A stretch of DNA of 56,040 bases from the IMG/VR virus record IMGVR_UViG_3300027739_000014, positions 1-56,040 of that record; one strand, given 5' to 3'. Origin of the DNA: a virus. A program made the position numbers and the translations under genes. Below, piece after piece: positions 1 to 26,701 of the stretch. Each line of letters opens with the position of its first letter. Position 1 is the stretch's first letter. The notes below the pieces were generated by a model that searched no databases, was not told the DNA's origin, and saw only the letters and a list, made by a program, of their open reading frames with translations.

Positions 1-310
1 ACGCCCGCCCAGGACGAGGCGGGTCGCACGCTCTCCAGATCGCTCGAGAACATGCTCCCATCGGTAAAAACTCGTAGTGTAGGCTCGCTCGGGCCCGTGA
101 TGCCGAAGGCGCCGAGCGCGGCGTCCTGGAAGTCACGATGCTCGGCGGTCCAGGGCTGTCGCGCGGCCTCGGCGCCGGTCTCGCCGTCGGCTTCGGAGTC
201 CCAGGCCAGCAGCGAGGAGCAGGAGAGGAGGAGGATCCAGATCATCGGGCCTCCAGTCCTGGCATGCAGGTGCGGTCGAGCGCGAAGACCCGCGCGTAGG
301 CATCGAAGGG
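1..310. other. GC-rich segment foreign to the rest of the contig
   Basis: The first 300 or so bases are strongly GC-rich (runs such as gcgcggcctcggcgccggtc), while everything after about position 315 is AT-richer phage DNA. The change is abrupt, between roughly 297 and 325. The segment also carries a classic Shine-Dalgarno site (ggagg on the minus strand near 250-254), which the phage genes do not use. I infer a chimeric assembly join or contamination from a high-GC bacterium rather than a biological insertion. It interrupts the giant phage gene, so the true end of that gene is not in this window. Confidence 0.7.
3..245 (-). CDS. 5' end of a lipoprotein gene in the foreign GC-rich segment (partial)
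   Basis: Reading leftwards from an ATG at 243-245, the product starts MIWILLLSCSSLLAW and continues with an acidic, Ala/Glu-rich sequence to the window edge. The hydrophobic start followed by LLLSC fits a lipoprotein signal peptide with Cys9 as the lipidated residue. A ggagg sequence sits at a normal distance before the ATG. GC-rich third positions fit a high-GC Gram-negative such as a myxobacterium or proteobacterium (inference). By chance it lies in the same frame as the giant phage ORF, so automatic callers would fuse the two. About 81 codons are visible and the end is missing. Confidence 0.45.
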   Translation of the reverse strand, partial: MIWILLLSCSSLLAWDSEADGETGAEAARQPWTAEHRDFQDAALGAFGITGPSEPTLRVFTDGSMFSSDLESVRPASSWAG

Positions 311-6300: not shown

Positions 6301-9191
6301 GGTAATGCCTGGAAATCCTTGCCGTAATAACCTTTCTCTGCAAGGACCTCATTGAATACCTGTAATCTCTCGTAATGGTTCTCAAGTCTTAATGCAAGTT
6401 CAAGTCTGCTGCCAACTTTATAGTAAATGTCAGCCTTGACATCTTCGGCCAGAGCCTTTACACTCTTGCCTGTCTCGATATCTATCAGATCAAATCCAAC
6501 TACTGTGCCTCTCTTGGTCTTTAATACTTCATTCACTTCATAATACACATCATCCATCTGAACAACATCCATCGGTTTAACATCTTTTAACGATGATGTT
6601 TTCAGAGTAACAAATCCGTCAAATGCCGGATCGTTATTCATGTTCTCCAGCACCTTGATGGCATCCCTGTTGGCATCAACGGCCATTCTGAGAACGCTTA
6701 CCGGCATTTTTTTGGCATATTCCTCTGTCTCTGCAATCCTTTGCATCTTCAGATCTTTACCAGTGATAGGTTCCTTGGTCATATCCAGCCACCGGTAGAG
6801 TTCTTTTGCAGTATCAGTATATCCTTTTTCGTCTGCAGTTCTGGCAGCATTGAATACCTTGGCTCTCATTTTAGGATTGAAATATCCTGTCCAAGATGCG
6901 CCTCCGCTTTTACCCCACTTGGCTCCAAGGGGTGCTGTCATGGCTTTTTGGCTCCCGGTAGTCAAGGCTCCCATGCCTCCGAAGAAGATACCATTGACAG
7001 TAAGTTCCATCAGGACCCTTTTCGTTACCTCATCGAGATTAGGATAGAGATTATTCATCTCTTCTTTGATCGTGCTATCAGAGAGTAGCGCATTTGCCAT
7101 CGCTGATGTAGCTAATCCGGCCTCCATACCCACCGTTGCACCTACGGCACTCTTATATGCCATATCAATGAACGGTTGCAGGATATTGCCCCATTTGCCC
7201 CTTAATTTGACTTCTGGCAGAAATAGATGTGCGGTATTGATACCGGTCATAAAGCCTGGTGTCATACCCATCATCCCTGTGAAGGCTGCTTCATCTATGG
7301 CAGATGAGATAACTAAACCCTTAAGTTTACTCACACTGGTTGGTTTGACCTCGCTGATCACCTTCCATCCGGTAGGCACCGGGTCTGCAAACCTCAATGT
7401 TCTGGTAAGAGGCTTACCGGCCTCTTTCAATACAGGGTTCTCAATTATCTTCGTGCCATACCTTAATTTACTGATTAATGGTGCAGACTTCAATACGTTT
7501 GTGGCACCACCTATGAGCATAAGCATCGGAAGGTCTGCCATAAGACTTCCGGAAAACGACATGGTTTGCTCAAGGAACCCCGGAGTTATCTGGTCAATCT
7601 CTTCGTCTGTCCAGCCTATACCTTCCCTCATGCCAAGTTCACCCATCTTCTGAAGGATAGTCTGCTCCGTTACCCTGCCTGATATTGGTGTTTCTTGTTT
7701 GGATATCCCCTTAAGGATTGCATCGCCCATGACCTCAAACTGATATTTGGCATCCTTCTTAATGTCCATAGGGCCTTCGTTGGCATAGTACATCCTAGAT
7801 GCAGCTTCAAACATAGCTGTCTTTTCGTACTTCATCTTTTGGGCGTTCTCCATTGCCGGAGAGATTGGGGCCGGCCTAAACCCTACTGTCCGGGCAGCCT
7901 GTTGTGGATCAGCATAGGGTGTTGATGCTTCTTTATACTGTTTTTCAAGCCTTGCATATTCCTCATCCCAAAACTTCTTCTCAACAAACGCATCATTGAC
8001 GATCTGGTGCAGCCTTTCCTTATCTGAAGGATTACTCGTTATTGATCCAGTAATGTTTTTATCAGTATCAATACTCTCATTAAAATCATTGATTTCTTTT
8101 TCAAGGTCTTTCTGCACCTTGATAAGATCAATCTGGGCCTTTTTCCACTCATCTACCTCCGGACTGGTGGCGATTAATGCTCCCTTCAAAGAGTCCTGTG
8201 CGGCCTTCCTCAGTTCCTCGACTTCAGCATAAGCCTCCATCAACTGATCCTGTTTGAGATCGAGTTGTTCTTTCTTCTTTGATAATGGATGGTCCGGTGA
8301 TGATGCTATTGCACCATTGCGGAGTTGCTCCATGTACTTATTGATAAGAGCCAACTGATCTGCATCGGCCTCTGTCTCCGGCTGTAATTTCCTCTGGCCG
8401 GTAACGGGGTCAATGAACGTGCCTGGTTTGGCATCTTTGACATAAGGTTGTGCTTCCTGTTGTACTGCCTGTTCGAGTTTTATGGGATCCCATTTCTCCT
8501 TTAACTTATCAACCATGCTTCTGTTGGCAGTATAATGAAGCATGTCCAGTAACCGGTTACGGTCCTCTTTCGGAATACCCTGCTCCTTAAGGTATTTCTC
8601 AACCTTCTTCTTTTCTCCAAACCCTTCGGTCAGGACATATTGTTCGGGATTGGTCTTGATATAGTTATAGTCCGGATGCTCAAGCAATTTGGGGATTACT
8701 CCGGCTATCTTTTCTTCATTTGCGCGGACTGCCTGAAATGCTTCCGCGGACTTATTGAGATAAGTATCACTGATTACCGGCTTGATTGCGTCTTGCCGGG
8801 CATAGAATTGATCGTAGATTTGCGATTTGTCCACAAAATCTGGATAATCCAGTTCCGGAACGACTGGCTCTTGTTCTTTTTTTTTTGACAGACTGAGTTT
8901 AGCGATATTACTATCAATGAACTTTTGCCTTAATTCCTTGATGGTGTTTACATCTTTAAGGCCCATCTCATTATAATAGGGTGTTGAGATACTGTCAAAA
9001 AACTTCCCAAGAGTATTGCGCTGACTTACTGAGTCCTGGCGATATAACCGTTCATCAGCAAAGAACTGGTCCTTATCTCTCTGGTAAAGGTCTTTTTTTA
9101 CCTTAAGAACATCAGGAGTATAATCTTGTGTCGGCTGATCAACCGGAAGCTCCGGTGCCGCCACTTCTTCTTTTTTGCGCTTTTTATCCAT
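3..9191 (-). CDS. Giant polyvalent virion protein: N6-adenine methyltransferase plus Strawberry-notch-type helicase (DarB-like, 3' truncated)
   Basis: One uninterrupted frame starts at ATG 9191 (MDKKRKKEE) and is still open where the foreign GC-rich DNA begins near 310, giving at least about 2,960 codons. The N-terminal 500 residues are charged and coiled-coil-rich. Around residues 540-745 lie Gly/Ala/Met-rich hydrophobic stretches. Near residue 2175 is a methyltransferase motif I (DPTGGHGAL) and near 2235 motif IV NPPFG, as in gamma-class N6-adenine DNA methylases. A Pro-rich linker (about 2370-2500) leads to a Walker A GDQTGVGKGR (about 2599), a DESH box (about 2730) and SATFAKRP (about 2760), the pattern of Strawberry-notch helicases. 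The helicase C-terminal half is lost. This architecture is known in giant phage proteins such as P1 DarB, which travels in the virion and protects incoming DNA from restriction. Its place at the end of the late operon after internal proteins fits an ejected protein. Catalytic activity is inferred only. Confidence 0.85.
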   Translation of the reverse strand, partial: MDKKRKKEEVAAPELPVDQPTQDYTPDVLKVKKDLYQRDKDQFFADERLYRQDSVSQRNTLGKFFDSISTPYYNEMGLKDVNTIKELRQKFIDSNIAKLSLSKKKEQEPVVPELDYPDFVDKSQIYDQFYARQDAIKPVISDTYLNKSAEAFQAVRANEEKIAGVIPKLLEHPDYNYIKTNPEQYVLTEGFGEKKKVEKYLKEQGIPKEDRNRLLDMLHYTANRSMVDKLKEKWDPIKLEQAVQQEAQPYVKDAKPGTFIDPVTGQRKLQPETEADADQLALINKYMEQLRNGAIASSPDHPLSKKKEQLDLKQDQLMEAYAEVEELRKAAQDSLKGALIATSPEVDEWKKAQIDLIKVQKDLEKEINDFNESIDTDKNITGSITSNPSDKERLHQIVNDAFVEKKFWDEEYARLEKQYKEASTPYADPQQAARTVGFRPAPISPAMENAQKMKYEKTAMFEAASRMYYANEGPMDIKKDAKYQFEVMGDAILKGISKQETPISGRVTEQTILQKMGELGMREGIGWTDEEIDQITPGFLEQTMSFSGSLMADLPMLMLIGGATNVLKSAPLISKLRYGTKIIENPVLKEAGKPLTRTLRFADPVPTGWKVISEVKPTSVSKLKGLVISSAIDEAAFTGMMGMTPGFMTGINTAHLFLPEVKLRGKWGNILQPFIDMAYKSAVGATVGMEAGLATSAMANALLSDSTIKEEMNNLYPNLDEVTKRVLMELTVNGIFFGGMGALTTGSQKAMTAPLGAKWGKSGGASWTGYFNPKMRAKVFNAARTADEKGYTDTAKELYRWLDMTKEPITGKDLKMQRIAETEEYAKKMPVSVLRMAVDANRDAIKVLENMNNDPAFDGFVTLKTSSLKDVKPMDVVQMDDVYYEVNEVLKTKRGTVVGFDLIDIETGKSVKALAEDVKADIYYKVGSRLELALRLENHYERLQVFNEVLAEKGYYGKDFQALPAGPPPAKGLGKSTGAFYVKTPEPTKIEKRLKQLEAEGAEMKKAGMEPVELPEKLKKEYTYGEPGKIMETPAKDFLGNLVKAQETLTKQTEAYDKQIADIEKQAEKFQGREGRKERAAYRDEIAKIEYAKKQLGLKFEKELQDYILESMPEIESRIKAKGDFSQEDINDIVELAWGKINNPTKEIKDLSIGEIFDKSVDEFIGKGEEPVTITPEKEAPKVTPAAEPQFPDQYKPNILDRKNDYKYIVYTPDGETEASSLTLKKPVIDIDGEKFLSMGLLSTVTDEQKQGLATNIIKYAMGNLPKDVAGLISKKESRNNQVEVPKIFEELKKFFDLEEKPNGDILFRAKKEQQFRTIDFENSELDTTDKGWIVRNMETGEEFPITVQEWDRQFALWEKAGGIKPETEEEKKTTEKDLAEKAKNKEARRIYANNELVSLMEEYNSTNSKSAKSKLIPRINSLSNEIGYTFKVEGRKITVFNEGGSKARRISVKPEYDTLTSIEEPGLKDFVGFMAKSWEFLYGIDAPSMGEVGLAKAAKILLSGKGTQHSQYLMDALKQMYQRGEMVFKGDGDTKIIVSIEEHTNLIKDAKFTTFVERYGGLTLETVNEAAKAGIIDEKEIQLYKQAIAEEHEARKRLEADWAAEEARLYGGEEPEAPTGGPPVPETKGPSKPVKGPTKPVKKQVDVAKDLKDMKDLLNLLGGPPAAGFGMESGGEDDALKTQLRNIASDMVRKFANAGITDFEDMLEQIIPQVDAPVLDKLMPFLKQGYGAVSMDAPEDVMEKMSKQFQKVRSFGKEDLDNLMAKMNAPEEPEDDFSDVVGKKFRVPNGMTIEIRHVEEWGETEYFQKVKAHDGLFAEEQTFPMKVVAIEGNPLTYAKLDTLRKGIAEGRVKEVIPEPPYNDPKRTKAYDEVAQEFEKLGDPDMATWIRSRATVKPSRGLTLENDLENLKECVKERKLELQIKYGEIQFVPRDPVRITSGSIFATLDKADGTGDSLEPYIMANVPAELLADVLRLENEVERWMAHIGMDWDAIGSYRFLQHHFGGIAPRDLLLFIGQEARRIAKGDKRTKPEKIVRRITQLEEAIKEGEKKLIDLKKYLFTNRIAYYLNNGVSIGNAGDLKRMAKDEFGITDLTTIRDQAEMALTMLAKRIAQNASLTISDRFYRIVALYDTFPLQDRFATSQVKELQQYSTPVPLGYMMGVYTNSDVVQSILDPTGGHGALVIFANQKNVRINEIDPNRFSSLVSQGYRASNYDARESLKDKFDHPLFYAINTNPPFGLQVTGDFKGAGKYSYTLSGTHYMVAMALENLADEGKASVIIGDHTKYDKDGYMTGGDLKFFNWLYSNFYVEDVIQIPGELYSKMGTSYPTRLILINGRKPAFEGIAPQRTERDNPVPGWTELYDRIIKITTDPHEKAILQSKMDAIGRDSTIIRGRNSSIPKNTEDIGPVQPPPGEVPGPPSERPGETKKPTSGDVHKPSPGNEPDRPGGPDTPLPTDDKPLRGLENPFKRKTGDRGAVQPPASPGDLPPEQPREPIERTGRSLGLIDRETDAVIPYVPLSRTPSGNEMVPGAMAQQLEDALMQLRAEVGDIDQYVMEKLKYNSLDDLSAALYGSQIDGIGMSVFNIENGDATIIGDQTGVGKGRIAAGVISYAIENGYIPVFITKTANLFTDMYRDLFDIGKPNYIPFILNKEDQGEKTKIYKPNTEEAMFIWSEKQYEQMLKTGELPKGTNFVLATYSQFNTDKGNALKRRDFFLNIAPNAIFIMDESHDASGSSNTGNFFKEFIQRTRGGVYLSATFAKRPDNLPIYAMKTVLREANMSYDDLVAAIVNGGPALQEIISSQLAESIQFTRRQLNMENIERNWYVLGNDEEGSMFYNPELGQQLRKDYDAVTKIMHEIIDFQRQHIKPVIEALDKEVKKEGESAGIKKGTVNMGVDNYPYFSKVFNIVNQLLLAIKVKHVIPLIVDELRKGRKPFITLSNTIQSPSTSASFTSQETSSLRCLRAGLRARPHLHARTGGPMIWILLLSCSSLLAWDSEADGETGAEAARQPWTAEHRDFQDAALGAFGITGPSEPTLRVFTDGSMFSSDLESVRPASSWAG

Positions 9192-9193
9192 GT

Positions 9194-10834
9194 CTATTGT
9201 TCAAGGGCCTTGAATAGATCCTCGGTGGTTTTCGTTTTATCCTCAAACAAATTATTGATTTTGGACGTACTATTCAACTGTGTCTCCATATCATTGATGT
9301 ACTTGTCATACGGGGTCCAATCTTGCTTATTCTCTTTTGCTGCCGTAAAGAGATCCTGTTTTACCTCATCATAAGGTACAATGGATGTTTCTGTATAAGA
9401 CTGCGTTCTTCCAGAGGAATCTGGCATGTAAATATTGAATTGATCTCCCAACGATGCTGCCTGTCCTTCCTTGACCTGTTTGTACGACAATCCAAAGTGA
9501 ATGTATGGTTTGTACTGTATCTGGTGAGGCGGAGCCATGCCCTGTTCCCTGGCACTGGCGTTCTCAAGTCTTATCTGCTCAAGAACATGCAATGGTATCC
9601 TCTCACCTGGCTTGATTGTCTCGGTAATCATCTCCGTACCCCTGGGATCCTTGACCTTTATTGCCATTGCTTTTGTGGCAACCGGGTACATGTTTGCCTC
9701 TACCGGAACTGCCGGGATTGCCTTGCCCTTGCCTTCTACCTGGCCGGTGATAGCATTTATGTTATTGGCAGAACCCATGATAGTTATGTTCTTAAACCCA
9801 AAGGTTGCTGCAATAGGTATGCGTCCAACACCCTCATAGGGTACAACTTTGTCACCACTCTTGCTTGATGTGTTGTAGTAGATATCCCTGACCTGCGGTT
9901 GGACAGGGTAATTGCCCGTAGTATCTTTCTCTGGAATACCATAGCCGGCTCCCATACCCCCTGTTCCGGAAATCCCCTGCTCATAACCTTTCTTTACCGG
10001 ATATTCTGGACCGTAATTCTGCATGATCCAATCCTCTTTGTTCATCACTCCCTTTTCCGGATCGGCCTCAAACATCTTATCTACGGCATTCTTTATGTTT
10101 GTAGGTGCGGCCTTATATGCCTTGAGGATACCGGCTTTTGCTCTTGCAGGATCAACACCTTCCCAGGTTGACTTGCCCCATTTACCAGTAGTCTCGTCAA
10201 TAATAAATCTACTGACGGTCTTATCTGTGCCAGGAACAAATTTCGGTATAGCCGCTTGAAAATATTTACCGGCATCCACCGGCCTTGCCTTACCAACAAT
10301 AAGTTCTTTTGACAACGGACTTCTTCCAAGAACGCCACCCTCTGCTTTCATCCATTTATCAATCTGTTCCTGTGTTGCATTAATGTCAATGTCTCTCTCT
10401 TCTTCTGGTTTCCCGGCCTGTTGATTTATTATTTTTTCAACATCGCCAATCGTTGCTTTCTCCTGCTGCCAGACATCGTGTTTCTGTTTAATGTCTGCCA
10501 ACTTTGTTCTGAATGCTTTTGCAATCTTCCTCTCTGCTCCGCTGGAAGGATCGTAGATGTTATATCCTTTACTTCCAAGTTCTACATATTGATCTTTAAG
10601 ATTTTCAAGTTCACCACTTATCTCATCATAGCCCTGCTGATCTTCCCATCCCTTGATGTCAAGGTCAATGAGTTTCTTCCCGGCCTCAAAGTCCTTATCT
10701 CTTTTTTCCTTGAGTGCCTGACCATATTGTAGCCTTTCAAGCCGTACTCTTTGTACTGCCTGTACCGGATCGTATGATGATGGCCCGAAAAATGGTGCCG
10801 CTACAAAGCCGGGATCTATTTTACCGTTTGCCAT
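9194..10834 (-). CDS. Putative internal/ejected virion protein, 546 aa
   Basis: No family recognised. The first 170 residues are highly charged and predicted helical (runs rich in Lys, Glu, Asp and Gln), consistent with a coiled coil. The middle and C-terminal parts (about 280-500) are Gly/Pro/Tyr-rich and more beta-like. There is no signal peptide. It lies 2 bases upstream of the giant polyvalent gene and 9 bases downstream of a small alanine/glutamine-rich protein, in one co-directional operon. In podoviruses, proteins at this place after the tail genes are usually internal core or ejected proteins; that role is inferred from position alone. Confidence 0.6.
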   Translation of the reverse strand: MANGKIDPGFVAAPFFGPSSYDPVQAVQRVRLERLQYGQALKEKRDKDFEAGKKLIDLDIKGWEDQQGYDEISGELENLKDQYVELGSKGYNIYDPSSGAERKIAKAFRTKLADIKQKHDVWQQEKATIGDVEKIINQQAGKPEEERDIDINATQEQIDKWMKAEGGVLGRSPLSKELIVGKARPVDAGKYFQAAIPKFVPGTDKTVSRFIIDETTGKWGKSTWEGVDPARAKAGILKAYKAAPTNIKNAVDKMFEADPEKGVMNKEDWIMQNYGPEYPVKKGYEQGISGTGGMGAGYGIPEKDTTGNYPVQPQVRDIYYNTSSKSGDKVVPYEGVGRIPIAATFGFKNITIMGSANNINAITGQVEGKGKAIPAVPVEANMYPVATKAMAIKVKDPRGTEMITETIKPGERIPLHVLEQIRLENASAREQGMAPPHQIQYKPYIHFGLSYKQVKEGQAASLGDQFNIYMPDSSGRTQSYTETSIVPYDEVKQDLFTAAKENKQDWTPYDKYINDMETQLNSTSKINNLFEDKTKTTEDLFKALEQ

Positions 10835-10843
10835 TTCTATTAA

Positions 10844-11533
10844 TTATTTAATTCCGAAAGCCGGAACATTAAGTGTTGTATTTTGCTTTTTGGTAATCTG
10901 AGCAATAATATCTGCCAAGTCTTTCTCGGAAACTGCTGATCCTCCTGTCCCTTTTCCTAATAATGAGGAAAGGATGTCCGTATTCTGCGTGGCAGTAGCA
11001 ACGCCCCCGATATTCTTTACTGCCGCCATGACGTTCTGCCCACCGGACTCTCTCAATGCCTGTGCTGCCTGTGCTGCCTGTAAGTATGGCATTTCCTTAT
11101 TCCAGTAGTCAACTCGTCTTTCTTCCTGATAAACTGGTCCCTGCAGAACATCCATGTACTGACCCTGTGCCTGGTATCTCTGCTGTGCTGCCTGTGCTGC
11201 CATCTGAGTATAGTTCTTTTGCTGACCAAGAACAAGTTTATCGAGCAATCCATAAGCCTCTGCACCGGATCCAAGTTGTGATGCTGCCCTCAGTCCTGAT
11301 GCGGTTGCTCCGGCAATCTCATTGCGATAGATCTCCCCTCCGGGAATATCCTGGTCAAGTTGACGGGCATAGGCATATCCCTGAAGGTCCTTTATGGACT
11401 GTGAGGTTGTTGCTTTTGGTCGGGGATATTGCTCTTCAAGTTTATCTGCCTTCTTCTCCTGAAACGCACCCCAGATACCTTGTACTGCGGATGTCGCTGC
11501 CCCTATTAATGCTGCTATTGTTACTGGATCCAT
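10844..11533 (-). CDS. Putative internal virion protein (T7 gp14-like type), 229 aa
   Basis: The product opens with a short hydrophobic, small-residue stretch (MDPVTIAALIGAATSAVQGI, residues 1-20) and then turns Ala/Gln/Tyr-rich and mainly helical. A glycine-rich loop lies near 190-200 (GKGTGGS). This plan, a single N-terminal membrane-active helix followed by an Ala/Gln-rich helical body, is what internal core or ejection proteins of podoviruses such as T7 gp14 look like. It sits between the stabilization-protein C-terminal piece and the 546-residue internal protein. Function is inferred from composition and position. Confidence 0.6.
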   Translation of the reverse strand: MDPVTIAALIGAATSAVQGIWGAFQEKKADKLEEQYPRPKATTSQSIKDLQGYAYARQLDQDIPGGEIYRNEIAGATASGLRAASQLGSGAEAYGLLDKLVLGQQKNYTQMAAQAAQQRYQAQGQYMDVLQGPVYQEERRVDYWNKEMPYLQAAQAAQALRESGGQNVMAAVKNIGGVATATQNTDILSSLLGKGTGGSAVSEKDLADIIAQITKKQNTTLNVPAFGIK

Positions 11534-11545
11534 GATATTGTCTTT

Positions 11546-14224
11546 TTAGCCACTTCTTTCACTGTCTGTTGATAAAACTATTACTGAGTAAATCCTTACT
11601 TTTTCATCGTGTTCCTCCGTTCTCAATCTTACATAGCAATATCTTCCTCTTATCTCTCTCCCGTTCATCGTCCTGGCGTTCATTGTTGCAAAGTTACCAG
11701 GACTATTCTCATCCTTGAGTATTCTGCCATAATAAATGCCCTCCGACTTATTCCAAACAGCAACATACGTTTCCATAAGCACATAAGAGGCTTCATAGGG
11801 AATTAGGATATATCTGCTATTGCAATCAAACTGATGATCGGCATAGACGGCTAGAGAATTGAAAACCTTATTCTTTTCAGGATTGACATTGCTGACAAAC
11901 TGAACATCACCTACCGTTGGAACCTTTGCCCATTCAAGCCAACCCTGTCCCTCATCCACATTCATTATGTAAAGTTTCTGACGATACATGTGGGCAAACC
12001 ATATTCCCAGATGAACATAAGATTCTGTCTGTTGATCTATCCTGGTTATCCACCGGCCATGATGTTCGCTGAAGATCGCTCCCCAGACTACTCCGTTCAT
12101 GTTCCAGTTAACCCAGATCTCATTATGCTCTACATTGGCACCAGAATTAACCAGTAATAAGCGAGATCCACCTTGAAGCGTTATCCATGCTGAAAGATCC
12201 CGGAACCATCTCTTCATCTTATAGTCAGAGATAGGTAGTTGTCCATTGGGTGCTGAACGTATGTATTTACCTTCGCTATTATCCCAATAATACAAGTTCC
12301 TATCATTAACCAAAACACTGTCCGGGTGCTGGCAGCCATAATTTGTTGACTCTTCCCTTGATGTGCCAAGAAGATTCTGAACCAAAGTGTAATTGCTTAA
12401 TCCTCCATCGGCACTGAATGTCTGCACCCTGTTGATATAGATGCTTGTTTCTTTGTACATCTGAAGGACCTTGAGAGTAAATCCTATTTCTCTCAATGCA
12501 GTTATGTCTCCATTCTTTCTTGGTAAATCAACAAAGTCATTATACATGAATAGGGCAATATTGTTTACCTGAGTACCCTCAAGCAGTCTGCCTCCGTTTC
12601 TTATTCTCTCATGCAATGCTACCTGTTGCTGACTCACATCCCATAAGAATGGCCAACCCTGAGAGGTTAAGGCTGTCTGAAGATCCCACCAGTCACTCGG
12701 AGCAATGCTTTCTGCATAAAATGGCACTACGTTTACCGTTCCGGATTCATAGTTCAGTCTGAAATACTTCCAGCAATCATTGGCTGTATTAAATATCTGT
12801 GCCTTTGTTGTGGTATTTCCATAAAGATCTATTACTTGGTCTATGTCTCCTTTATGATATTTATTGCCATTTGCGTCAATACCTATCTCAAAGACCATCC
12901 CTGTACCATAGAATATGGTTGTTCCCAGACCTTTTCGTGGCCTATAAACTTCTACGAGAATATCATTTGCACCCTCAACCCATTCCGTAGGGGCATTTAC
13001 GGCCTGTACGATAAGCCACTCGCCTCCAACCGCATCACCATACATGGTACTGGTTCTCTCAATCTCATAATCGAAGTTTTCCTCAAATTCCGTAACATCA
13101 CCAGAACCAGTATCTATTGTGCCGATAAGCCTTAATCTATCTCCATGCTCCCATATATAGTCAGGAACTTTCCATCGGAGATTATTAATTCTTGTTTCAT
13201 CCAAGGTATCCTGAATCATTACTGCCCATCTGTCATGAGTAAGATCCTTGATGTCATTGATCCTAATCTGAAGGAAATAATCCATAGATATATTTCCGGA
13301 ATAAACAATCTCGTAAGTTGTTGCCCAATCCGGGGGCCGGTGATTTATGTTAAAAGTGAGATAAGCAATAGTTGTTGTAAGAACATCCGGTAATCCATTT
13401 GGATTACCTTTCATATACCAGGGCAAATAAATATCGAAGTCATCTGTCTTAATGACTGAGCATCTTCTTGCTATTTCATCTTTATATACAAGTCCAAAGC
13501 CATGAACTGCACCATACTTCAATACTGGATACTTTGTGACAGTTCCATAAGAAGTGTAATATGCGCTAACCTCATAGCCATAATCCGGGAAAACATCAGT
13601 AAAGTTTCCTTCGCTTGGTGGTGGAAATGTATGATAAACTCTATCTAATGGCCAGAAATCAAGCCAGAATGGATATACAACCGGATCTGCATCTGAAGTT
13701 ACTCTTGAGGGTCCCCAATTAGGATGAGCCAACATTGCAGCGTTTAGACCTACCGTCACATCATACCAGTTGTCTCCTGCTTGGGCCACATAAGATACAA
13801 TATATGCGATGTCATTCTTTGTATCATCAACTCTTAGATAATAAACATCACCGGAAGTAACAGGATTTGGTATAAGAACATGGGCGGAGACATAAAATCG
13901 AGTGTTTCTTGTTATTTCTCCTCCTGGCGTTGGATCCCAAGAATATGGAGGTTTTCTTTGTGAAATATAAACATCCAGATTAATCGTGGTAAAATCTACT
14001 GATATGTCCGAATAATCAACATCAACCGACATATCTGGCTTAATAGTATCATACCCTTCAGTTATCTTTCCAAATACAACCGCATTGCCGGATATCAACT
14101 CCATGTGTCCAGCTTTTATTGGCACATAGGTAAAGGGTATGGCTATCGCTTCGGCAGCGATTTGTTCTTTAATCCTGTCGTTGTAAAACTTTATGTCAAT
14201 ATCTTGATTATGTCCGTAAAGCAT
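11546..14224 (-). CDS. Tail stabilization (muzzle-like) protein, C-terminal portion, 892 aa
   Basis: A beta-rich, Trp/Tyr-rich protein resembling the second half of the large tail stabilization proteins of crAss-like phages (P22 gp10-like role at the tail tip). Diagnostic stretches are the block near residues 237-262 (YGAVHGFGLVYKDEIARR) and HRPPDWATTYEIVYSGN near 295-312. The last 300 residues show propeller-like repeats (NEIWVNWNMNGVVWGAIF and similar). It has its own ATG but lacks the N-terminal block of the family, which is found in the gene at 18654-20654. I therefore read it as one part of a protein split over several ORFs. Start chosen because the ATG lies 7 bases after the previous stop. 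Confidence 0.65.
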   Translation of the reverse strand: MLYGHNQDIDIKFYNDRIKEQIAAEAIAIPFTYVPIKAGHMELISGNAVVFGKITEGYDTIKPDMSVDVDYSDISVDFTTINLDVYISQRKPPYSWDPTPGGEITRNTRFYVSAHVLIPNPVTSGDVYYLRVDDTKNDIAYIVSYVAQAGDNWYDVTVGLNAAMLAHPNWGPSRVTSDADPVVYPFWLDFWPLDRVYHTFPPPSEGNFTDVFPDYGYEVSAYYTSYGTVTKYPVLKYGAVHGFGLVYKDEIARRCSVIKTDDFDIYLPWYMKGNPNGLPDVLTTTIAYLTFNINHRPPDWATTYEIVYSGNISMDYFLQIRINDIKDLTHDRWAVMIQDTLDETRINNLRWKVPDYIWEHGDRLRLIGTIDTGSGDVTEFEENFDYEIERTSTMYGDAVGGEWLIVQAVNAPTEWVEGANDILVEVYRPRKGLGTTIFYGTGMVFEIGIDANGNKYHKGDIDQVIDLYGNTTTKAQIFNTANDCWKYFRLNYESGTVNVVPFYAESIAPSDWWDLQTALTSQGWPFLWDVSQQQVALHERIRNGGRLLEGTQVNNIALFMYNDFVDLPRKNGDITALREIGFTLKVLQMYKETSIYINRVQTFSADGGLSNYTLVQNLLGTSREESTNYGCQHPDSVLVNDRNLYYWDNSEGKYIRSAPNGQLPISDYKMKRWFRDLSAWITLQGGSRLLLVNSGANVEHNEIWVNWNMNGVVWGAIFSEHHGRWITRIDQQTESYVHLGIWFAHMYRQKLYIMNVDEGQGWLEWAKVPTVGDVQFVSNVNPEKNKVFNSLAVYADHQFDCNSRYILIPYEASYVLMETYVAVWNKSEGIYYGRILKDENSPGNFATMNARTMNGREIRGRYCYVRLRTEEHDEKVRIYSVIVLSTDSERSG

Positions 14225-14231
14225 CTGACAT

Positions 14232-14657
14232 TTAACTTACATAGATTATCCCAAGTGAGTTCCATTCTATCGTTGAAGTGCCGTTTGTGACAATCTGGTT
14301 AGTGGTAAAATCAATGATACATCTTATTGGAGATGTTGACAAACTTCCTCCTACAAACGCATAGACACATCCATAGCGGTAACTTAGTGTTGCCGAAGGA
14401 CCTATAACAACATTGGCCGCATCGAGGAAAGCATTGTTCCCATCATAGGATTGCACTCTTCCGGTAATAGGCATACCTTCTACTGGATAAGGTCCACTGG
14501 CTGCGATCCTCCTGTCTACAACACCACTCTGTCCTGCGAATTGGTGTTGTGCGGGATCGGGTGTATATTGGTCATTAAGAAGCATAAGTCTTAAATCTTC
14601 TGCTACCCAGGCATCAACTATTGCCTTTTTTACAAATCTTGGTACTACGCTTGCCAT
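14232..14657 (-). CDS. Small tail-associated protein, 141 aa, unknown
   Basis: An N-terminal helix (about 1-27, charged/hydrophobic) is followed by a Gly/Ser/Tyr-rich beta-type sequence with no Cys clusters beyond C97 and C113. It lies between the PL9-like tail spike (16 bases upstream) and the stabilization-protein C-terminal piece (7 bases downstream), so it is expressed with tail parts. It could be a spike adaptor or tail-tip subunit. No family recognised; the assignment to the tail is from position. Confidence 0.55.
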   Translation of the reverse strand: MASVVPRFVKKAIVDAWVAEDLRLMLLNDQYTPDPAQHQFAGQSGVVDRRIAASGPYPVEGMPITGRVQSYDGNNAFLDAANVVIGPSATLSYRYGCVYAFVGGSLSTSPIRCIIDFTTNQIVTNGTSTIEWNSLGIIYVS

Positions 14658-14673
14658 GATATTTCGTTTTTAA

Positions 14674-17463
14674 TTAATTCAAAGGTTCTGTCCATAAAAG
14701 TATTGTTAAAGTATCACCTGGAGATGATGCAACTGTCATATTTACTGAGAATGGTCCATTAGATTCCATGTTATTCATCTCAATGTAAGTCGGGGTAACG
14801 CCATAAACATATCCGGAATTATTTCTTCTAATCATTATTCTCAAATTCAATAACGCACCTTCGCCAAATTGTGAGTGCCAGGGAATACAATCAAATACAA
14901 CCAATGTTGATCCTACTGCATTATAAGCATTATACTCATCAATATACATGTGAGTTTCACTTGGATGATTAATAACATTAACAGATATTGGTAGCGGTGC
15001 AGCTCCCTGGGTTACGGTTAATAAGACGTTATTCAAATAAGGAGTATTATCCTCTATCGTAATTACACCGGTCCTCTCTGCTCCGTTGTTCTGAGAATTT
15101 GGGTATAATGCCAGTGTTGTTCCGGAAGCGATCTGGCCTCCTTCCAGTACCTCTACCGCATCATCGTCATTCCAGACAGTCATCCATGCCGGTATATCCC
15201 TGACAAACATCGGTATTGTTGGAACTGAATGGGTAATAGTTGTTTCATACTTGATACCGACTCCGGGTGCGCCAATATATTCAAATGCTCCTATGGACGG
15301 TATCGCGTTCCAACCATAGCCATCTCCGTCATAACCATTGGCACCGCCCAGGTTAATCCCGGCATTTCTTAGATCTGAACCAGTTTCTAGGTGCAAAAAA
15401 TCTAGCTTCGGCAAACTACCATCACTTTGTCTTACACCATCTAGGACTGAATCTATAAGACTTTTAAAATCCGCATCTGTAACTGTAACTACACCATTCC
15501 ATGAATTATGGTCATTGGTTGCTCCGGCTGCTACTACGGCATTAACATTACTGTTTGAATATGCAATATTGTTTCTTAGGATATTTGCGATACCAAGTGG
15601 TCTGTTAAATTCAAAGCCGTTATAATTTCCAAAGGCCACATTGTTATATAACCACATGATGCAACTGAAATCTGCCGTATTCTGGTCAAATCCATTAACC
15701 ATATTTCTAACAGCCAATGAATTTTTTACGGTTCTCAGATGTTCGGTTGCATGGTCAGTAAAGCAAGGTCCTAGTTTAAATCCATTGCCATCAGCCCCAC
15801 CACCATAAGGAGTTATTCCTTCATCACTATACCCATTCCAAAACGCCCAGCATCTATCTATCTCAATATACCCATCGTGGTCAAAGAAATCCCATCCATC
15901 ATCACAGCAACACCATGCCCTACACCCATAGAAATATAGAAATGTAGAGGTATCTCCACCTGTCGCATTAAATCCGTTTGCATTTTCATAGTTGTGATAA
16001 GGATCTGCAAGGTGATGAGCATCACAGTTTCTCCAAGTAATATGATGTGATTGGTTCACTACAAAACCATATCCACCAAGATGGTCCGCATCGCATAATT
16101 CGATAGTACAATAAGTACATGTTGTATGGAATATTCCCGACACTCCTCCTGTCTGCAATGCTGTCTGTGCTAGTCCTGTTACTCTTAATCCCTTAATATT
16201 TAGATAGTCACAACTATAAACATAGAGTGCAATGATGTATGTATAAGTCGGAACTACATTATCAAGATTTAATACTGGAGATTCGTCAGGATAATTTAAA
16301 ATATTGATTGGATTTAATGCTGTACCATGAAGATGATGCCATCTGCTAAATGCGGATGCTGAATTGGCATAGGTCGTTCTGTAAATACCTCCTCTGATAT
16401 ATGCTAGATCTCCGGCAACCATTACGTCATCCAATCTCTCCCATGTTTTAAATGGTGAATTAAATGATCCATCATTAGTATCACTTCCCCAGTTTGCTAC
16501 ATAATAATCTGCACCAATATCTGTTGCTGAACCATATATCCTGGCTCCGACCTGCCATGTCCCATCCTGATTTTGATAATCAGTTAGTCTATCAAGATCC
16601 CAAGTAGCACCCAACGCTAAACCAGTAAGATATGTTGTTCCAAGGTTTACTCCATAATTCAATCTTGCGCGTGGAACGAAAGTGATGGTATCAAAGAAAT
16701 TTGGATTTATAACAACCGAATGAGTATCATAACCTAATGCCCTCCATTGCGCCCAAGTATATATTGAACCCAGATAATTGAATGATGGAAGATTATCTCC
16801 TTCTTCGCACCAATATATGTTGTAGTCACACTCAAATCCCGTCAGACAGCCGGCATTGCCTACCCAGATACTATTAATCCCTTTATAGACTGTGTAAAAG
16901 ATATTGTTCTTAATTTTTGCACCGGACGCTGAACCAACGGGACTTATATCTGAATTTTCATAAACCTCTACTAGAGATCTGTTACAAACTGCACTGGTAA
17001 GTGAACTGTAAAGGGTGTTGTTATAAATCTTAATCCCATTCATTCCCTTAACAACTATCCCTGGCTTTCCGTTCTTGACGATATTGTACGCAACCATCCC
17101 GGATGTATCCGTCATGCCATTGCTCTTGCGTACAATGCCCATTGGCACTCCGTCAAGATAATTGTATTTTACATGGACATTAATGTTGTATCCGGTAAAT
17201 ATTCCGTGCGTAATGATACTTAATGAGGGTGTTCCTCCCCAGACTAACTTGTTTCCGTAAATAAGCGCACCATCGAGATTGTTATTATAAGCATTGACAT
17301 TCTCATCTCCAGAGCATAGCATATATCCCTGAGTATTTAAAGAAGAAATGAAGTTTCTCCTATAAATAAGATCAGTATCCGTAAGTCTGGGGATATTAAC
17401 TCCTGTCCAGACCGGGGTATCTGTATTAATGGTTGATGTGCCTTCTATGAGTAATTGAGCCAT
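14674..17463 (-). CDS. Tail spike: two beta-helices with PL9-like polysaccharide lyase and BACON domain, 929 aa
   Basis: Residues 1 to about 315 form one right-handed beta-helix-type region (repeated YNNTLY, KNNIFY motifs), paralogous to the secreted protein at 23178-24302. Residues 318 to about 730 match the family 9 pectate-lyase pattern: GSDTNDGSF, an early IRGGIYR, GCRAW, DDGWD (521-525) and GNGFKLG with Lys563. In the Erwinia PL9 enzyme, Asp residues in DDGWD bind calcium and the Lys is the catalytic base. The usual ADGF aspartate is Asn here (NANGF, 494-498), so one calcium ligand may be altered. Residues about 745-820 fit a BACON domain (IPAWMTVW, ALYPNS, ERTGVITI, LLTVTQGAA), common in Bacteroidota surface proteins. 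There is no signal peptide, as expected for a virion spike. Likely role: capsule or surface glycan recognition and degradation at adsorption. Confidence 0.75.
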   Translation of the reverse strand: MAQLLIEGTSTINTDTPVWTGVNIPRLTDTDLIYRRNFISSLNTQGYMLCSGDENVNAYNNNLDGALIYGNKLVWGGTPSLSIITHGIFTGYNINVHVKYNYLDGVPMGIVRKSNGMTDTSGMVAYNIVKNGKPGIVVKGMNGIKIYNNTLYSSLTSAVCNRSLVEVYENSDISPVGSASGAKIKNNIFYTVYKGINSIWVGNAGCLTGFECDYNIYWCEEGDNLPSFNYLGSIYTWAQWRALGYDTHSVVINPNFFDTITFVPRARLNYGVNLGTTYLTGLALGATWDLDRLTDYQNQDGTWQVGARIYGSATDIGADYYVANWGSDTNDGSFNSPFKTWERLDDVMVAGDLAYIRGGIYRTTYANSASAFSRWHHLHGTALNPINILNYPDESPVLNLDNVVPTYTYIIALYVYSCDYLNIKGLRVTGLAQTALQTGGVSGIFHTTCTYCTIELCDADHLGGYGFVVNQSHHITWRNCDAHHLADPYHNYENANGFNATGGDTSTFLYFYGCRAWCCCDDGWDFFDHDGYIEIDRCWAFWNGYSDEGITPYGGGADGNGFKLGPCFTDHATEHLRTVKNSLAVRNMVNGFDQNTADFSCIMWLYNNVAFGNYNGFEFNRPLGIANILRNNIAYSNSNVNAVVAAGATNDHNSWNGVVTVTDADFKSLIDSVLDGVRQSDGSLPKLDFLHLETGSDLRNAGINLGGANGYDGDGYGWNAIPSIGAFEYIGAPGVGIKYETTITHSVPTIPMFVRDIPAWMTVWNDDDAVEVLEGGQIASGTTLALYPNSQNNGAERTGVITIEDNTPYLNNVLLTVTQGAAPLPISVNVINHPSETHMYIDEYNAYNAVGSTLVVFDCIPWHSQFGEGALLNLRIMIRRNNSGYVYGVTPTYIEMNNMESNGPFSVNMTVASSPGDTLTILLWTEPLN

Positions 17464-23177: not shown

Positions 23178-24302
23178 TTAGTATTGAATGAATATTTCAC
23201 CTTCCTTGAAAAACATCTTACCCGTCTTTAGCGGTATGTTTACCGTATCTCCTGAGATAACGTACCCTTTCTCATAAAAGATCGTCATTCCCCCTTCATA
23301 CACCCTCGCCCCCTGTTGCCAATACATACCATTCTGTCTTACCAAAGGTACATCTTTCCCAACCTCCCAATGAGCATTAGCAGCAATACCCATATTAAAC
23401 TCAGTCCAGGTTCCCCATTCCACTCTCCATGATGGTACCAAACTTTCTGTATCAATAAAGTATGGATCTCTTAACTGAGAATGAGTATCATATCCGTGTT
23501 CTCTCCACTGGGTTAATGTATGTCTCACTCCGGCAATAGTAAAGATCGGTTCTCCTGCCTCACACCAATAAACATTATAGTCACATTCAAATCCCTGTAA
23601 ACAATCTTCTTCCATTACGTTGATATTAATAATCTGTCTTTTGGTATAGAAGATATTGTTCTTGATCTTTGTGTTATGTGCCCTGCCGAATGCGTCAGGA
23701 TGACCGGAGGATGTGTCGGTGTTCATGTAAACATCAATCAGACCGCGCCAGGTTCCGATGCCTGGACCAACATATACCGAATCTTCGCTATAAAAGGTAT
23801 TATTATAAATCCTTACTCCGTTCATTCCTTTAACTACAACGCCAACGGCAGGAGGATTACGAATGATATTGTAAGCCACTACCCCGGAAGTATCAGTCAA
23901 TCCATTTGACTTACGAACAATACCCATTGGAACGTAATTGAGATAATTATACATGATCCTTGCGTCCGTATTATATCCTGTAAATATCCCATGAGTAATT
24001 GTATTGGCATTCTGATCTCCGGTCCAGTTGAACTTGTTACCAATTATCTGTTCACCACGAAGATTATTGGTATATCCTGACGGCACTTCATATCCTGCTT
24101 CCAGCATATACCCGTTTTTGTTACAGGTCTGAACATAGTTGTTCTTAAAGGTGAAAGTCGTAGGAACGGTTTTTGGAAAGACTACCCCATATCCTACATC
24201 GCAGTTGATGGTATCAATCTTTGTCTGTCCTTCAATGGTCAAAACAACTTGCGCCGATAAAATCGGCGGCAATAATAACATTATGAATATCAGCCACTTC
24301 AT
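23178..24302 (-). CDS. Secreted beta-helix protein, paralogue of the tail-spike N-terminal half, 374 aa
   Basis: Residues 1-18 are a clear signal peptide (MKWLIFIMLLLPPILSAQ). The rest is a right-handed beta-helix-type region that aligns with residues 1 to about 310 of the tail spike at 14674-17463: both contain NTITHGIFTGYN or SIITHGIFTGYN, VPMGIVRKSNG, VVKGMNG, KIKNNIFY, GFECDYN and WR..GYDTHS. It ends FFKEGEIFIQY and lacks the PL9 and BACON parts. A signal peptide on a phage spike relative suggests export to the periplasm or surface of the infected cell. The start overlaps the upstream HYR lipoprotein stop by 4 bases. Confidence 0.7.
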   Translation of the reverse strand: MKWLIFIMLLLPPILSAQVVLTIEGQTKIDTINCDVGYGVVFPKTVPTTFTFKNNYVQTCNKNGYMLEAGYEVPSGYTNNLRGEQIIGNKFNWTGDQNANTITHGIFTGYNTDARIMYNYLNYVPMGIVRKSNGLTDTSGVVAYNIIRNPPAVGVVVKGMNGVRIYNNTFYSEDSVYVGPGIGTWRGLIDVYMNTDTSSGHPDAFGRAHNTKIKNNIFYTKRQIININVMEEDCLQGFECDYNVYWCEAGEPIFTIAGVRHTLTQWREHGYDTHSQLRDPYFIDTESLVPSWRVEWGTWTEFNMGIAANAHWEVGKDVPLVRQNGMYWQQGARVYEGGMTIFYEKGYVISGDTVNIPLKTGKMFFKEGEIFIQY

Positions 24303-24871
24303 TTTATTGTGAATGTATCATTATCGCTAACCCATGTAATCACTCTTCCACCATATCCGGTAGTGGCATGTGCAGGAGAGGTCCATGTCAGCATCATCTT
24401 TTCATTATATTGATTATCTGATCTCAGACTGTCCGGTACTGAACTCCAATCATAATTGGCATCAAAAAATGCCTCTTGCTCCGCTACCATTTTGTCTGCC
24501 TGATCGTACATATTATTTATCTTGATCCAATTATCAGCAAGTAAATCTCCGGTAGGAGTAATTACGGGTGGTTGTGAATCTTTTGCTGTTACCGTAAAAC
24601 TAACTTCACTAAAATTATTAAATGCGTCCGTCGCTCTAATCACTACCGTAACCACAGGATTTGTAATGCTCAAAATAGTGCCAGGAGCCGGTGTCTGAAC
24701 CACGCTCTTAATGCTACAATTATCGGTCACAATAACCATTGGTACATAGTTAGGTAGTGGAGCTTCACAATTTGCCCCAACCATAACATACTGTGGAGGT
24801 ATCTGCGAAAGCAGACATGTACAACTGCTTGCAAGAAGCATAACCGCAAAAAGAATTGTTAGTTTTTTCAT
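24299..24871 (-). CDS. Lipoprotein with a HYR (hyalin-repeat) domain, 190 aa
   Basis: Residues 1-17 form a lipoprotein signal with lipobox LASSC (Cys17). Residues about 45-105 fit a HYR-type immunoglobulin-like domain: VTDNCSI, APGTILSI, VVTVVIRATDAFNNFSEVSFTVTAKDSQPPVI. The C-terminus is unassigned. It is coupled to the secreted beta-helix gene (4-base overlap) and lies 4 bases upstream of a DUF5675 gene's end. Two exported proteins in one phage operon suggest a change to the host envelope, for example superinfection exclusion or adhesion; that is inference. Confidence 0.65.
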   Translation of the reverse strand: MKKLTILFAVMLLASSCTCLLSQIPPQYVMVGANCEAPLPNYVPMVIVTDNCSIKSVVQTPAPGTILSITNPVVTVVIRATDAFNNFSEVSFTVTAKDSQPPVITPTGDLLADNWIKINNMYDQADKMVAEQEAFFDANYDWSSVPDSLRSDNQYNEKMMLTWTSPAHATTGYGGRVITWVSDNDTFTIK

Positions 24872-24875
24872 TATC

Positions 24876-25322
24876 TTATCGTATTATTAGTTTGAATTTT
24901 GGTGGAAGAATTGTTCTTAATAAATCCATTGCCTTGGTGCTATCCTGTACGTCTATGTTTCCGTCATTGTTTATGTCAAAAAACTTTAATCCTACAAGGA
25001 TACATCCAAGGGTATCAACTTTTCTCAGGTCTTTCATAATGGCTCTTTCCAGTAGCATTTTTTCAGATGCGTAGTTGCCAATATGAATGATTATATTAGA
25101 CCGGTTTGGTACATCCTTTACAAGAAAACATATTCCAAATTTCTGAGAATGTATGCGTTCGCACTCGTATTCACCTGGGGGGATGCAGGAAATATCTTTG
25201 TGATTTTCAAGGTACGGCAGTTCCAGGCTCTTGACCTGGGCAACTACCGTATCCTCGTCAATCACCAAGAAACAGCCTTGTGTCTGCTTCTCAAGATAAG
25301 ATCTGCCAATTACTGCGAACAT
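24876..25322 (-). CDS. DUF5675-family protein with a calcium-binding-type loop, 148 aa
   Basis: The core matches DUF5675: SLELPYLENHKDISCIPPGEYECER (about 32-56), FLVKDVPNRSNIIIHIGN (66-83) and GCILVG (106-111). Residues 116-127 (DINNDGNIDVQD) have the spacing of an EF-hand/dockerin loop, as sometimes seen in this family. No catalytic role is established. These proteins are often found near holins or lysis genes, as here: the start overlaps the stop of a holin-like gene in a TAATG. Possibly envelope- or lysis-related. Confidence 0.65.
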   Translation of the reverse strand: MFAVIGRSYLEKQTQGCFLVIDEDTVVAQVKSLELPYLENHKDISCIPPGEYECERIHSQKFGICFLVKDVPNRSNIIIHIGNYASEKMLLERAIMKDLRKVDTLGCILVGLKFFDINNDGNIDVQDSTKAMDLLRTILPPKFKLIIR

Positions 25323-25528
25323 TATACAGGCTCGCTTTGCTTAAAGAATATCCCGATCAATGCAACAACCCCGGCAATTACCGATGAAATAAGGGGTAAG
25401 GCCTGTGAAGATTGTTCGGGTGTAACAATGCCGAAACCTACAAGAACTGCAAACACAAGTGCGATAATTGATAATACTGTCTGCATCCAAGTTGCAGACC
25501 ATTCTCTTTTTGTACTTTTTGCTTTCAT
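25322..25528 (-). CDS. Holin-like small membrane protein, 68 aa
   Basis: Two hydrophobic segments, about 15-33 (MQTVLSIIALVFAVLVGFG) and 44-62 (LPLISSVIAGVVALIGIFF), separated by a short polar turn (IVTPEQSSQA), with a basic N-terminus (KAKSTKREW). This is the plan of a two-helix holin. Neighbours support lysis: DUF5675 downstream (TAATG coupling), metacaspase 10 bases upstream. No sequence family named. Confidence 0.6.
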   Translation of the reverse strand: MKAKSTKREWSATWMQTVLSIIALVFAVLVGFGIVTPEQSSQALPLISSVIAGVVALIGIFFKQSEPV

Positions 25529-25538
25529 AATTTAACTT

Positions 25539-26294
25539 TTAAGTGAATACTAATCTATTTTGAAGATCAATGTTTCCTTCTATTGTAGGATGTTGATCGA
25601 AGTTTTTATTTGGAAGGTAAAGACACACCTGTTCAAACCATTTGCGATAAGTAAAGTTCCTGTCCAGACAGTTCCAGAAATAGAATGAAAACGCACCGTT
25701 AAAAACTCCGTTAATTTCCGCATCGGCAGAAGTTTCATTCTCTGCACAGGCAGAAAAAATAATAACGTCACCCATAGGATGTATTGCCTTTTTTATCCTG
25801 TTGTATGAAGGCAAACATTTTTTTGGAGGCATAAAACGAGCCTTGCTATTCAATGCTCTTGGCTTATTCCCTGAGAAGCAACTGTCGAGAATTAATACGA
25901 AAGTAACACCTTGGGGAATGTCTTTTAGCAATTCTTCAGTTTCATCGTCAATGAAGTTCCCGTCATAAAGATAAAGTGTTTCGTCCACGCCGTCAGGCTC
26001 ATCCCCGTGAACATCCTTCACATAACTTCCGTGACCGCTGTAAGCGACTATTATTATGTCACCAGAAACAGCGTTTTGTTTTGCATAAAGCACTTGATCT
26101 CTGAGTGTGCGCCTTGTTACATCACTATCCTTAAACGGTCTTATCTGAAAGTCGGGTATTTGACTTGCTGCCAGCAGCATATCATTATTACATCCGTTCA
26201 GATCGTTTTTTGAGCCTTTGTAGTCGTTAATTGATAGCAATATTGCGACCTTATTTGAGTGTTCCCACGCTATCGGTTTTCTTTTGAAGCACAT
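25539..26294 (-). CDS. Phage-encoded metacaspase-like cysteine protease (peptidase C14 type), 251 aa
   Basis: A complete caspase-fold domain without a prodomain. The p20 part has KVAILLSINDY (15-25), then DLNGCNNDM, the catalytic His motif YSGHGS (His88) and the catalytic Cys motif LILDSCFSG (Cys139). Between them lies DEPDGVDETLYLYD (98-111), the acidic signature of type I metacaspases that cut after Arg/Lys. The p10 part has IIFSACAENETSADA (178-192), NGAFSFYFWNCL and QHPTIEGN. So both catalytic residues and the substrate-pocket region are present. It begins inside a TAATG overlap with the upstream coiled-coil membrane protein and is followed by a holin-like gene. Possible roles are cleavage of a host or phage protein at lysis, maturation of virion proteins, or interference with caspase-based defence. 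None is shown by the sequence. Confidence 0.85.
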   Translation of the reverse strand: MCFKRKPIAWEHSNKVAILLSINDYKGSKNDLNGCNNDMLLAASQIPDFQIRPFKDSDVTRRTLRDQVLYAKQNAVSGDIIIVAYSGHGSYVKDVHGDEPDGVDETLYLYDGNFIDDETEELLKDIPQGVTFVLILDSCFSGNKPRALNSKARFMPPKKCLPSYNRIKKAIHPMGDVIIFSACAENETSADAEINGVFNGAFSFYFWNCLDRNFTYRKWFEQVCLYLPNKNFDQHPTIEGNIDLQNRLVFT

Positions 26295-26701
26295 TATTTT
26301 AACGCATTAACAATATTCCATAACTCGCGCAGTCCAAAATAGTCCAGTAACCCTACGATAATCGCCACCGATCCAATAAATATCAACAATAACGCCCACC
26401 AATTCTTTTTCATCCATTGGTAAGGTTTGTGGCTTCCGGTTTTAACGTGTTCTTTAAACTCTAGAACAACTTCTGCCCTCTTGTTGCTTTCTCTCTGTAA
26501 CTCCGCGACAGTGCCGTTCAGTTCTTTAAGATGTTCCTTTATGTCTTTAAGATCTTTGTTTGTTATCCATGCAGTTGCCGCAAGATCTTTATGCACACCC
26601 TTTATGCCGTCTGTTATAGCATTACGGATATCATTATGAGCATTTAGATTGTTTAATTGAATGTCCTCTACGGCTTTAAATATAAGAGTTAGATCTGCCA
26701 T
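26294..26701 (-). CDS. Coiled-coil protein with a C-terminal membrane anchor (XhlA-like plan), 135 aa
   Basis: Residues 1-95 are helical and charged, with heptad-like spacing around KDLKDIKEHLKELNGTVAELQRE (about 50-72). Residues about 101-123 (WWALLLIFIGSVAIIVGLLDYFG) form one membrane helix. The order, a cytoplasmic coiled coil then a membrane helix, resembles XhlA-type holin partners or holin-associated proteins. The stop overlaps the start of the metacaspase gene (TAATG), so the two are made together. It could anchor or regulate the protease at the membrane. Confidence 0.6.
   Translation of the reverse strand: MADLTLIFKAVEDIQLNNLNAHNDIRNAITDGIKGVHKDLAATAWITNKDLKDIKEHLKELNGTVAELQRESNKRAEVVLEFKEHVKTGSHKPYQWMKKNWWALLLIFIGSVAIIVGLLDYFGLRELWNIVNALK

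Follow-up and report, generated by a model that had tools for sequence, protein, structure and literature searches.

Caspase-type proteases in bacteria are discussed as effectors of host defence or of programmed death. What, then, is such an enzyme doing among the genes of a tailed phage? The question is raised by the 56,040-nt stretch IMGVR_UViG_3300027739_000014 (the window, in what follows), which carries on its minus strand, at 25539..26294, a gene for a whole metacaspase. That the window comes from a tailed phage is clear from its portal (PHROG 6547, E 1e-73) and terminase (PHROG 6681, E 4e-72) proteins, alongside further virion proteins. The same phage is present in two other IMG/VR records: one is identical across 20.7 kb, and the second, a 76-kb contig, has 99.99% identity to the window across 55.7 kb.

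The first-pass annotation had placed the gene and its neighbours correctly, and its reading of the product as an intact protease of the metacaspase type is borne out. The protein (251 aa; N-half, then His segment, then Cys half with a p10-like part) matches Pfam Peptidase_C14 with an E value of 2.5e-24 over residues 15-240, far beyond the family cut-off. Both of the motifs singled out earlier are there: YSGHGS with the catalytic His88 (codon 26031..26033), found in all 49 aligned rows with a residue at this position, and LDSCFSG with the catalytic Cys139 (codon 25878..25880), found in 50 of 50. When modelled by AlphaFold (AF2) together with 50 relatives, the protease gave a pLDDT of 90.9 and a pTM of 0.89, and Foldseek retrieved GSU0716 as its best PDB match (3bij, E 3e-17, TMq 0.74), with plant metacaspases 9 and 4, MALT1, and the Candida, trypanosome and yeast metacaspases among the further matches. 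In this confident model, strands 80-86 and 131-137 stop right ahead of His88 and Cys139, as the dyad would require; in the caspase fold these two strands are neighbours. Pairs within the phage clade described below have omega values of 0.06-0.15, i.e., the gene is under purifying selection in these relatives.

Which bonds might this enzyme cut? His88, Cys139, Asp38, Asp104, Asp116, Asp117 and Asp137 vary hardly or not at all among the 50 relatives, and Cys35 is near-invariant too. We take the S1 pocket to be formed by Cys35, Asp38 (codon 26181..26183) and Asp137, residue roles known from TbMCA2 and Yca1 and mapped via alignment with solved metacaspases. The acidic stretch DEPDGVDE, to which the pocket had previously been assigned, is a loop past the catalytic His in the same alignment. 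The pocket residues, read in the light of other metacaspases, predict specificity for Arg/Lys. Position 146 (Cys+7; codon 25857..25859), Asp in Yca1, is Arg in the window and Arg or Lys in 49 of the 50 relatives, which, by the same comparison, predicts that Ca2+ control is altered or absent. The idea of a Ca2+-influx trigger, whereby opening of the holin would activate a Ca2+-dependent metacaspase, was downgraded because of this replacement. As a separate observation, residue 2 is Cys in an MC opening that recurs, usually as MCF or MCW before a Lys and with no evident signal peptide, in the metacaspases of the window, L192, L011, L161, L275, L179, L190, L293, L294 and L295.

The closest relatives among characterized enzymes are the type I metacaspases (MEROPS C14B; Yca1, C. 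glabrata Mca1, T. brucei MCA2; also GSU0716). They have the same fold and His/Cys dyad and share with the window protease the pocket residues and a p20 followed by a p10-like region; unlike them, the phage protein has no prodomain, has Arg/Lys in place of the Yca1 Asp at Cys+7, and its gene belongs to the lysis cassette of a tailed phage. Orthocaspases and metacaspase-like proteases of prokaryotes are C14 proteases too, and some of them have a C-terminal membrane helix (PMC3501461). A review defines this group by a p20 without p10 (PMC5756287), and the window protease falls outside the definition: its p10-like part is modelled by AlphaFold, the profile can be aligned to Yca1 and Mca1 over both of their halves, and the p10 region lies C-terminal to p20, the type I order.

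Another question concerns whose gene this is. PHROGs contained no family matching the window protease, INPHARED gave a single relative, distant and of canonical order, from a phage of 485 kb, and the BFVD matches at E < 0.001 were all named for viruses of eukaryotes, none for a tailed phage. Profile scans of IMG/VR were more productive, with 60 and then 82 relatives, and 21 in a third scan; when the window protein, DUF5675 or the G002 protein (see below) was used singly as a query against viral contigs, only the same phages came back. In a tree of 68 proteins, the window protein lies inside a 12-row, all-virus clade (SH-aLRT 99), and in a second tree, for which the His segment was left out, the clade comprises 22 proteins, all of phage (100/99). 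The bacterial relatives, from Zoogloeaceae and other Pseudomonadota, KSB1 and Bacteroidales, fall outside the phage clade. Homologues confined to host genomes, which would have refuted the first-pass reading, are therefore not what is seen. With regard to bacterial forms, the trees place metacaspases with a C-terminal membrane helix from bacterial MAGs (L193, L195 and L237 from KSB1; L194 from Bacteroidales) close to the phage forms L012, L015 and L166. Distant viral metacaspases in L018, L035 and L020 adjoin portal or terminase genes, not lysis genes, and a different role is possible for them.

To judge from sequence comparison, the metacaspase gene is accessory in these phages, because 26 other contigs picked for a related terminase include none with a Pfam C14 match (0/26); one of them, G002, has a rearranged copy overlooked by Pfam C14 at E 0.001. 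The relatives lacking the gene retain DUF5675 and coiled-coil genes; the metacaspase is therefore not required for lysis.

The company kept by the gene is what makes it worth a closer look. On the minus strand, the order is a 123-aa gene, a 135-aa coiled coil (26294..26701), the metacaspase, a 68-aa two-helix gene (25322..25528), a DUF5675 gene of 148 aa (24876..25322) and two secreted proteins of 190 aa (24299..24871) and 374 aa (23178..24302), conserved neighbours of the cassette with 67% and 64% identity, respectively, in L192. As had been seen at the outset, the metacaspase start lies inside the stop of the coiled-coil gene (TAATG, 26292..26296); a TAATG overlap of the same kind joins the end of the holin-like gene to the DUF5675 start, and the gap between metacaspase and holin-like gene is 10 nt. 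The metacaspase gene is ∼10 kb from the portal and terminase genes.

Does this arrangement recur? One case is L192, 10 kb of sequence that binning has assigned to a bacterial MAG, in which a coiled coil, a metacaspase (48% identity; 11-nt overlap with the coiled-coil gene), a two-helix gene and DUF5675 reproduce the order of the window, with flanking proteins 64-67% identical. G002, whose TerL is 85% identical, has two coiled-coil genes, the rearranged metacaspase, again with its start at TAATG, a 2-TM gene and DUF5675 (60%). Elsewhere the cassette includes recognized endolysins: L294 has a coiled coil, an M15 endolysin (PDB match 2mxz, an L-alanyl-D-glutamate peptidase, E 5.6e-9), a metacaspase and a two-helix gene 54% identical to that of the window; L165 has a coiled coil, a CHAP endolysin and a metacaspase; in L179 and L306 the metacaspase is followed by a multi-TM gene (3-TM in L179) and then an M15 endolysin; and in L012 it is followed by an N-acetylmuramidase. 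L293 and L190 have the order coiled coil, DUF5675, metacaspase, TM gene, and L159 has DUF5675, metacaspase, two-helix gene.

These impressions can be put into numbers. The clade was surveyed by hand in 22 contigs, one contig per near-identical gene, of which 21 continue past the metacaspase, with ORFs in the other loci called by a simple longest-ORF rule. A holin-like gene with 1-4 TM segments, from one of two homologous families, lies no more than two genes downstream in 15 of the 21, and is absent just downstream in six (L011, L160, L161, L162, L164 and L305). A coiled-coil membrane protein lies within three genes upstream in about 9 of 22 contigs, and DUF5675, M15 or CHAP within three genes in 11 of 22. 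The expectation that the protease and coiled-coil genes form a conserved pair holds in part: their order recurs in L192 and, with the rearranged protease, in G002, but it is the holin that accompanies the protease more consistently. In a cruder survey of 55 loci, with which this agrees, small proteins with at least two membrane helices made up 13/207 of the genes within two positions of the metacaspase and 2/211 at five or more (Fisher p 0.003, for loci that are not independent); five endolysin PHROGs are among the top 25 near families, and none is among the top 25 far families. The metacaspase of the window is a member of a recurrent cassette, and the proposal that the protease, partnered by a tail-anchored coiled coil, belongs to a lysis-like cassette of a late phage operon is supported.

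The assignment of the neighbours rests, for the holin and the coiled coil, on size, topology or hydropathy, and weak profile matches. As annotated earlier, the coiled-coil protein has a single membrane helix (residues 101-119), and its predicted anatomy, a cytosolic coiled coil with a C-terminal anchor, is XhlA-like; there was no XhlA profile match at E 0.1, nor in the relatives at 0.05. Its relative in G002 is 39-41% identical. The 68-aa protein, also named holin-like before, has two hydrophobic segments and weak matches to PHROG 565 (E 2.8e-4) and Holin_SPP1 (E 0.0066; E 0.0025, also weak, for its L192 counterpart), and homologues of its gene (E 1e-25 to 9e-6) follow the metacaspase in L294, L192, L159 and L016. 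The DUF5675 assignment of the 148-aa protein stands at E 1e-19; a profile search found no PDB relative. A role as an L,D-transpeptidase-like enzyme was considered and dropped, given that the resemblance is limited to a His/Cys motif. The motif itself, IHxGN...GCI with His80 and Cys107, is invariant in the DUF5675 proteins of the window, L192, L275, L273, L274, L272 and L159, and is reminiscent of a His/Cys transpeptidase site. Among the best 25 of 37 Pfam families on the phage's 76-kb contig, which may be incomplete, there was no canonical endolysin.

To our knowledge, the lysis cassettes of SPP1 and PBSX have the layout closest to that of the window. In SPP1 (gp24.1, endolysin gp25, gp26) and PBSX (XhlA, XhlB, XlyA), a tail-anchored protein and a two-helix holin are placed around an enzyme gene, as here; the phages are unrelated to that of the window as far as is known, and their cassettes differ in that the window encloses a protease and has no XhlA profile match. 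The SPP1 cassette consists of an XhlA-type gene, an endolysin and an XhlB-type holin (PMC6316719), so that the layout, for which the first-pass annotation knew of no standard lysis system, has a partial precedent, to which a protease in the middle is added here. In L272, which has no metacaspase, DUF5675 is flanked by coiled coil and holin, the place of the endolysin in SPP1. The literature searched, with subscription journals mostly outside its reach, described no metacaspase in a phage lysis cassette and no rearrangement of the His segment of the kind found in G002.

This rearrangement is a story of its own. The window protein has the ordinary order of segments; in G002, ∼50 residues with the catalytic His are gone from the middle of the protein and are found at the C-terminus, where a His-segment profile matches them with an E value of 2.6e-4 (0 of 2000 shuffles matched). 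The same order is present in L176, L177, L179, L180, L188, L189, L190, L293, L294, L295/L296 and L304, with E values for the moved segment as low as 8e-18. In all, the rearranged form is seen in 13 contigs including G002, which represent about 11 distinct genes and, going by sample numbers, 11-12 metagenomes, and makes up half of the sampled phage clade; INPHARED has no full-length match to it. Coordinates of the rearranged (A-C-B) genes are 6782-7579 in L275, 9971-10771 in L179, 9767-10585 in L189, 5427-6236 in L293, 7971-8774 in L294 and 7986-8768 in L295. They too adjoin holin, DUF5675 or M15 endolysin genes. In every rearranged form SGHG has become S[S/T/C]HG, the His, the Cys and the pocket Asp ahead of the Cys are kept, and omega values of 0.07-0.125 in pairs of these genes denote purifying selection. 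The data are compatible with a single origin (p-AU 0.32), though the best tree has three changes. AlphaFold gave a pTM of 0.67 for the G002 form, with the moved segment mostly below a pLDDT of 50.

Rearranged caspase folds have precedents: type III metacaspases of algae have p10 ahead of p20 (PMC5756287), and caspase-2 has been circularly permuted by engineering (PMC7760212). In the phage proteins, unlike type III, the N-half is followed by the Cys half with p10 and then by the His segment, and p20 is not intact. As read from the alignments, this is a transposition of a segment in which p20 itself is split, not a circular permutation. Such proteins may be under-annotated, because the one example tested, that of G002, went undetected by Pfam C14 at E 0.001. 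If active, they offer a natural experiment on how much rewiring the caspase fold tolerates.

How would the protease reach a membrane? Relatives without a coiled-coil partner often have a candidate anchor of their own, judged by eye and by hydrophobic moment: an amphipathic N-terminal helix in L162 (MKALLKRIWEWIKALFQRP), L160, L164, L026, L031, L023 and L159, or a C-terminal membrane or amphipathic helix in L167, L166 and L015 and in the bacterial L193-L195 and L237. Membrane docking, like late expression, Arg/Lys specificity and action at lysis, is what we infer from sequence.

A role of the metacaspase in lysis is probable. The fuller proposal, in which a late phage metacaspase joins the lysis module as its third component, has about an even chance. 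On the cytoplasmic membrane, the enzyme would be docked at the inner face, in trans through the coiled-coil protein in the window phage and, in relatives, by its own amphipathic N-terminal helix or C-terminal membrane helix instead. It would cleave after Arg/Lys, probably without a Ca2+ need of the yeast or trypanosome kind. At lysis time a membrane neighbour would be cut, most likely the coiled coil at its Lys-rich juxtamembrane stretch, or else the holin; the cut would release or complete membrane disruption, while the wall would be attacked by DUF5675, or by the endolysin in other cassettes. That an adjacent membrane protein is the substrate is a tentative suggestion, somewhat on the doubtful side, which draws on an analogy with bacterial gasdermin operons, set in an SPP1-like two-holin layout. 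In these operons a caspase-like protease is encoded beside a membrane protein activated by that protease (PMC9612521). The likeness is in the pairing of a caspase-like protease with a membrane-active protein; the phage cassettes differ in consisting of phage lysis genes rather than a defence island, and no gasdermin was seen in them with profiles that did not include a gasdermin-specific model. The broadest reading, in which a membrane-docked metacaspase is an unrecognised third lysis enzyme that works jointly with holin and endolysin, and in which its fold has been naturally rebuilt in this family of phages, with the His strand C-terminal and still active, falls a little short of an even chance. 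If true, phages would wield caspase-class enzymes to kill on purpose, and what a protease adds to lysis would become directly testable.

Other explanations can be offered for the same gene. The enzyme might be a general executioner with no substrate in the cassette, degrading cytoplasmic or inner-membrane proteins of the host late in infection, which would ease lysis or recycle amino acids; a broad Arg/Lys specificity, predicted from the conserved Cys35, Asp38 and Asp137, its location in a lysis module and the C-terminal membrane anchors of bacterial relatives would all suit this role, but the close linkage with a coiled-coil membrane protein of its own and with a holin speaks for a local activity over a bulk one, and we consider it unlikely. 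A little less likely still is a moron-like function in anti-defence or superinfection exclusion, by which the enzyme would disable competing phages, or abortive systems of the host that caspases or proteases trigger. The accessory distribution is compatible with it, as are a weak match to the PADLOC caspase model (E 1.1e-6), a bacterial relative in L196 near TIR-like and patatin-like genes (recognized by eye), and the fact that caspase-like proteases are host death effectors (PMC9612521). Across unrelated phages, however, the gene stays beside holin, endolysin and DUF5675 genes. Anti-defence genes are usually found in early or variable regions.

The processing of virion proteins, which had been among the roles first proposed, is disfavoured. 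In L018 and L035 a related metacaspase adjoins the portal gene, the usual place of a prohead protease; yet phages with TerL 62-81% identical have no C14 match, so that head assembly does not need the metacaspase, and canonical head-maturation protease PHROGs (4 families among those listed) occur farther away in the metacaspase contigs. For these two reasons a virion or prohead maturation protease was rejected as the main reading, and the position of the window gene, ∼10 kb from portal and terminase amid lysis-like genes, also points away from it; it is improbable. More improbable yet is a catalytically dead scaffold that merely docks the cassette proteins. Bacterial pseudo-orthocaspases do exist (PMC6426788), but the His, Cys and pocket residues are near-invariant here, even in the rearranged forms, and omega is low. 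As for host contamination or an assembly artefact, all the records are metagenomic, which would leave room for one; against this, the same gene is found in three records with portal, terminase and virion genes, and L192 has a syntenic cassette, so that the chance is negligible.

Some further features of these genomes deserve mention. On the minus strand, window positions 1-9190 hold an open frame of ∼2,920 codons that reaches the left end of the window; in a longer contig, L288, a ∼2,920-codon frame (1581-7310 and 7331-16090 being the two intervals concerned) is followed by one of ∼1,910 codons. A gene with a RadC-like JAB domain at 52215-52874 of the window is 49% identical to a gene of L192 located ∼5 kb from its cassette. 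Finally, several GIY-YIG-like homing endonuclease genes ('SGIYQIQSKIKPERIYIGSA', by eye) are inserted between virion genes of relatives, at 8527-9285 and 10675-11397 in L275, 5093-5392 in L273 and 676-1407 in L274, and are absent from these places in the window.
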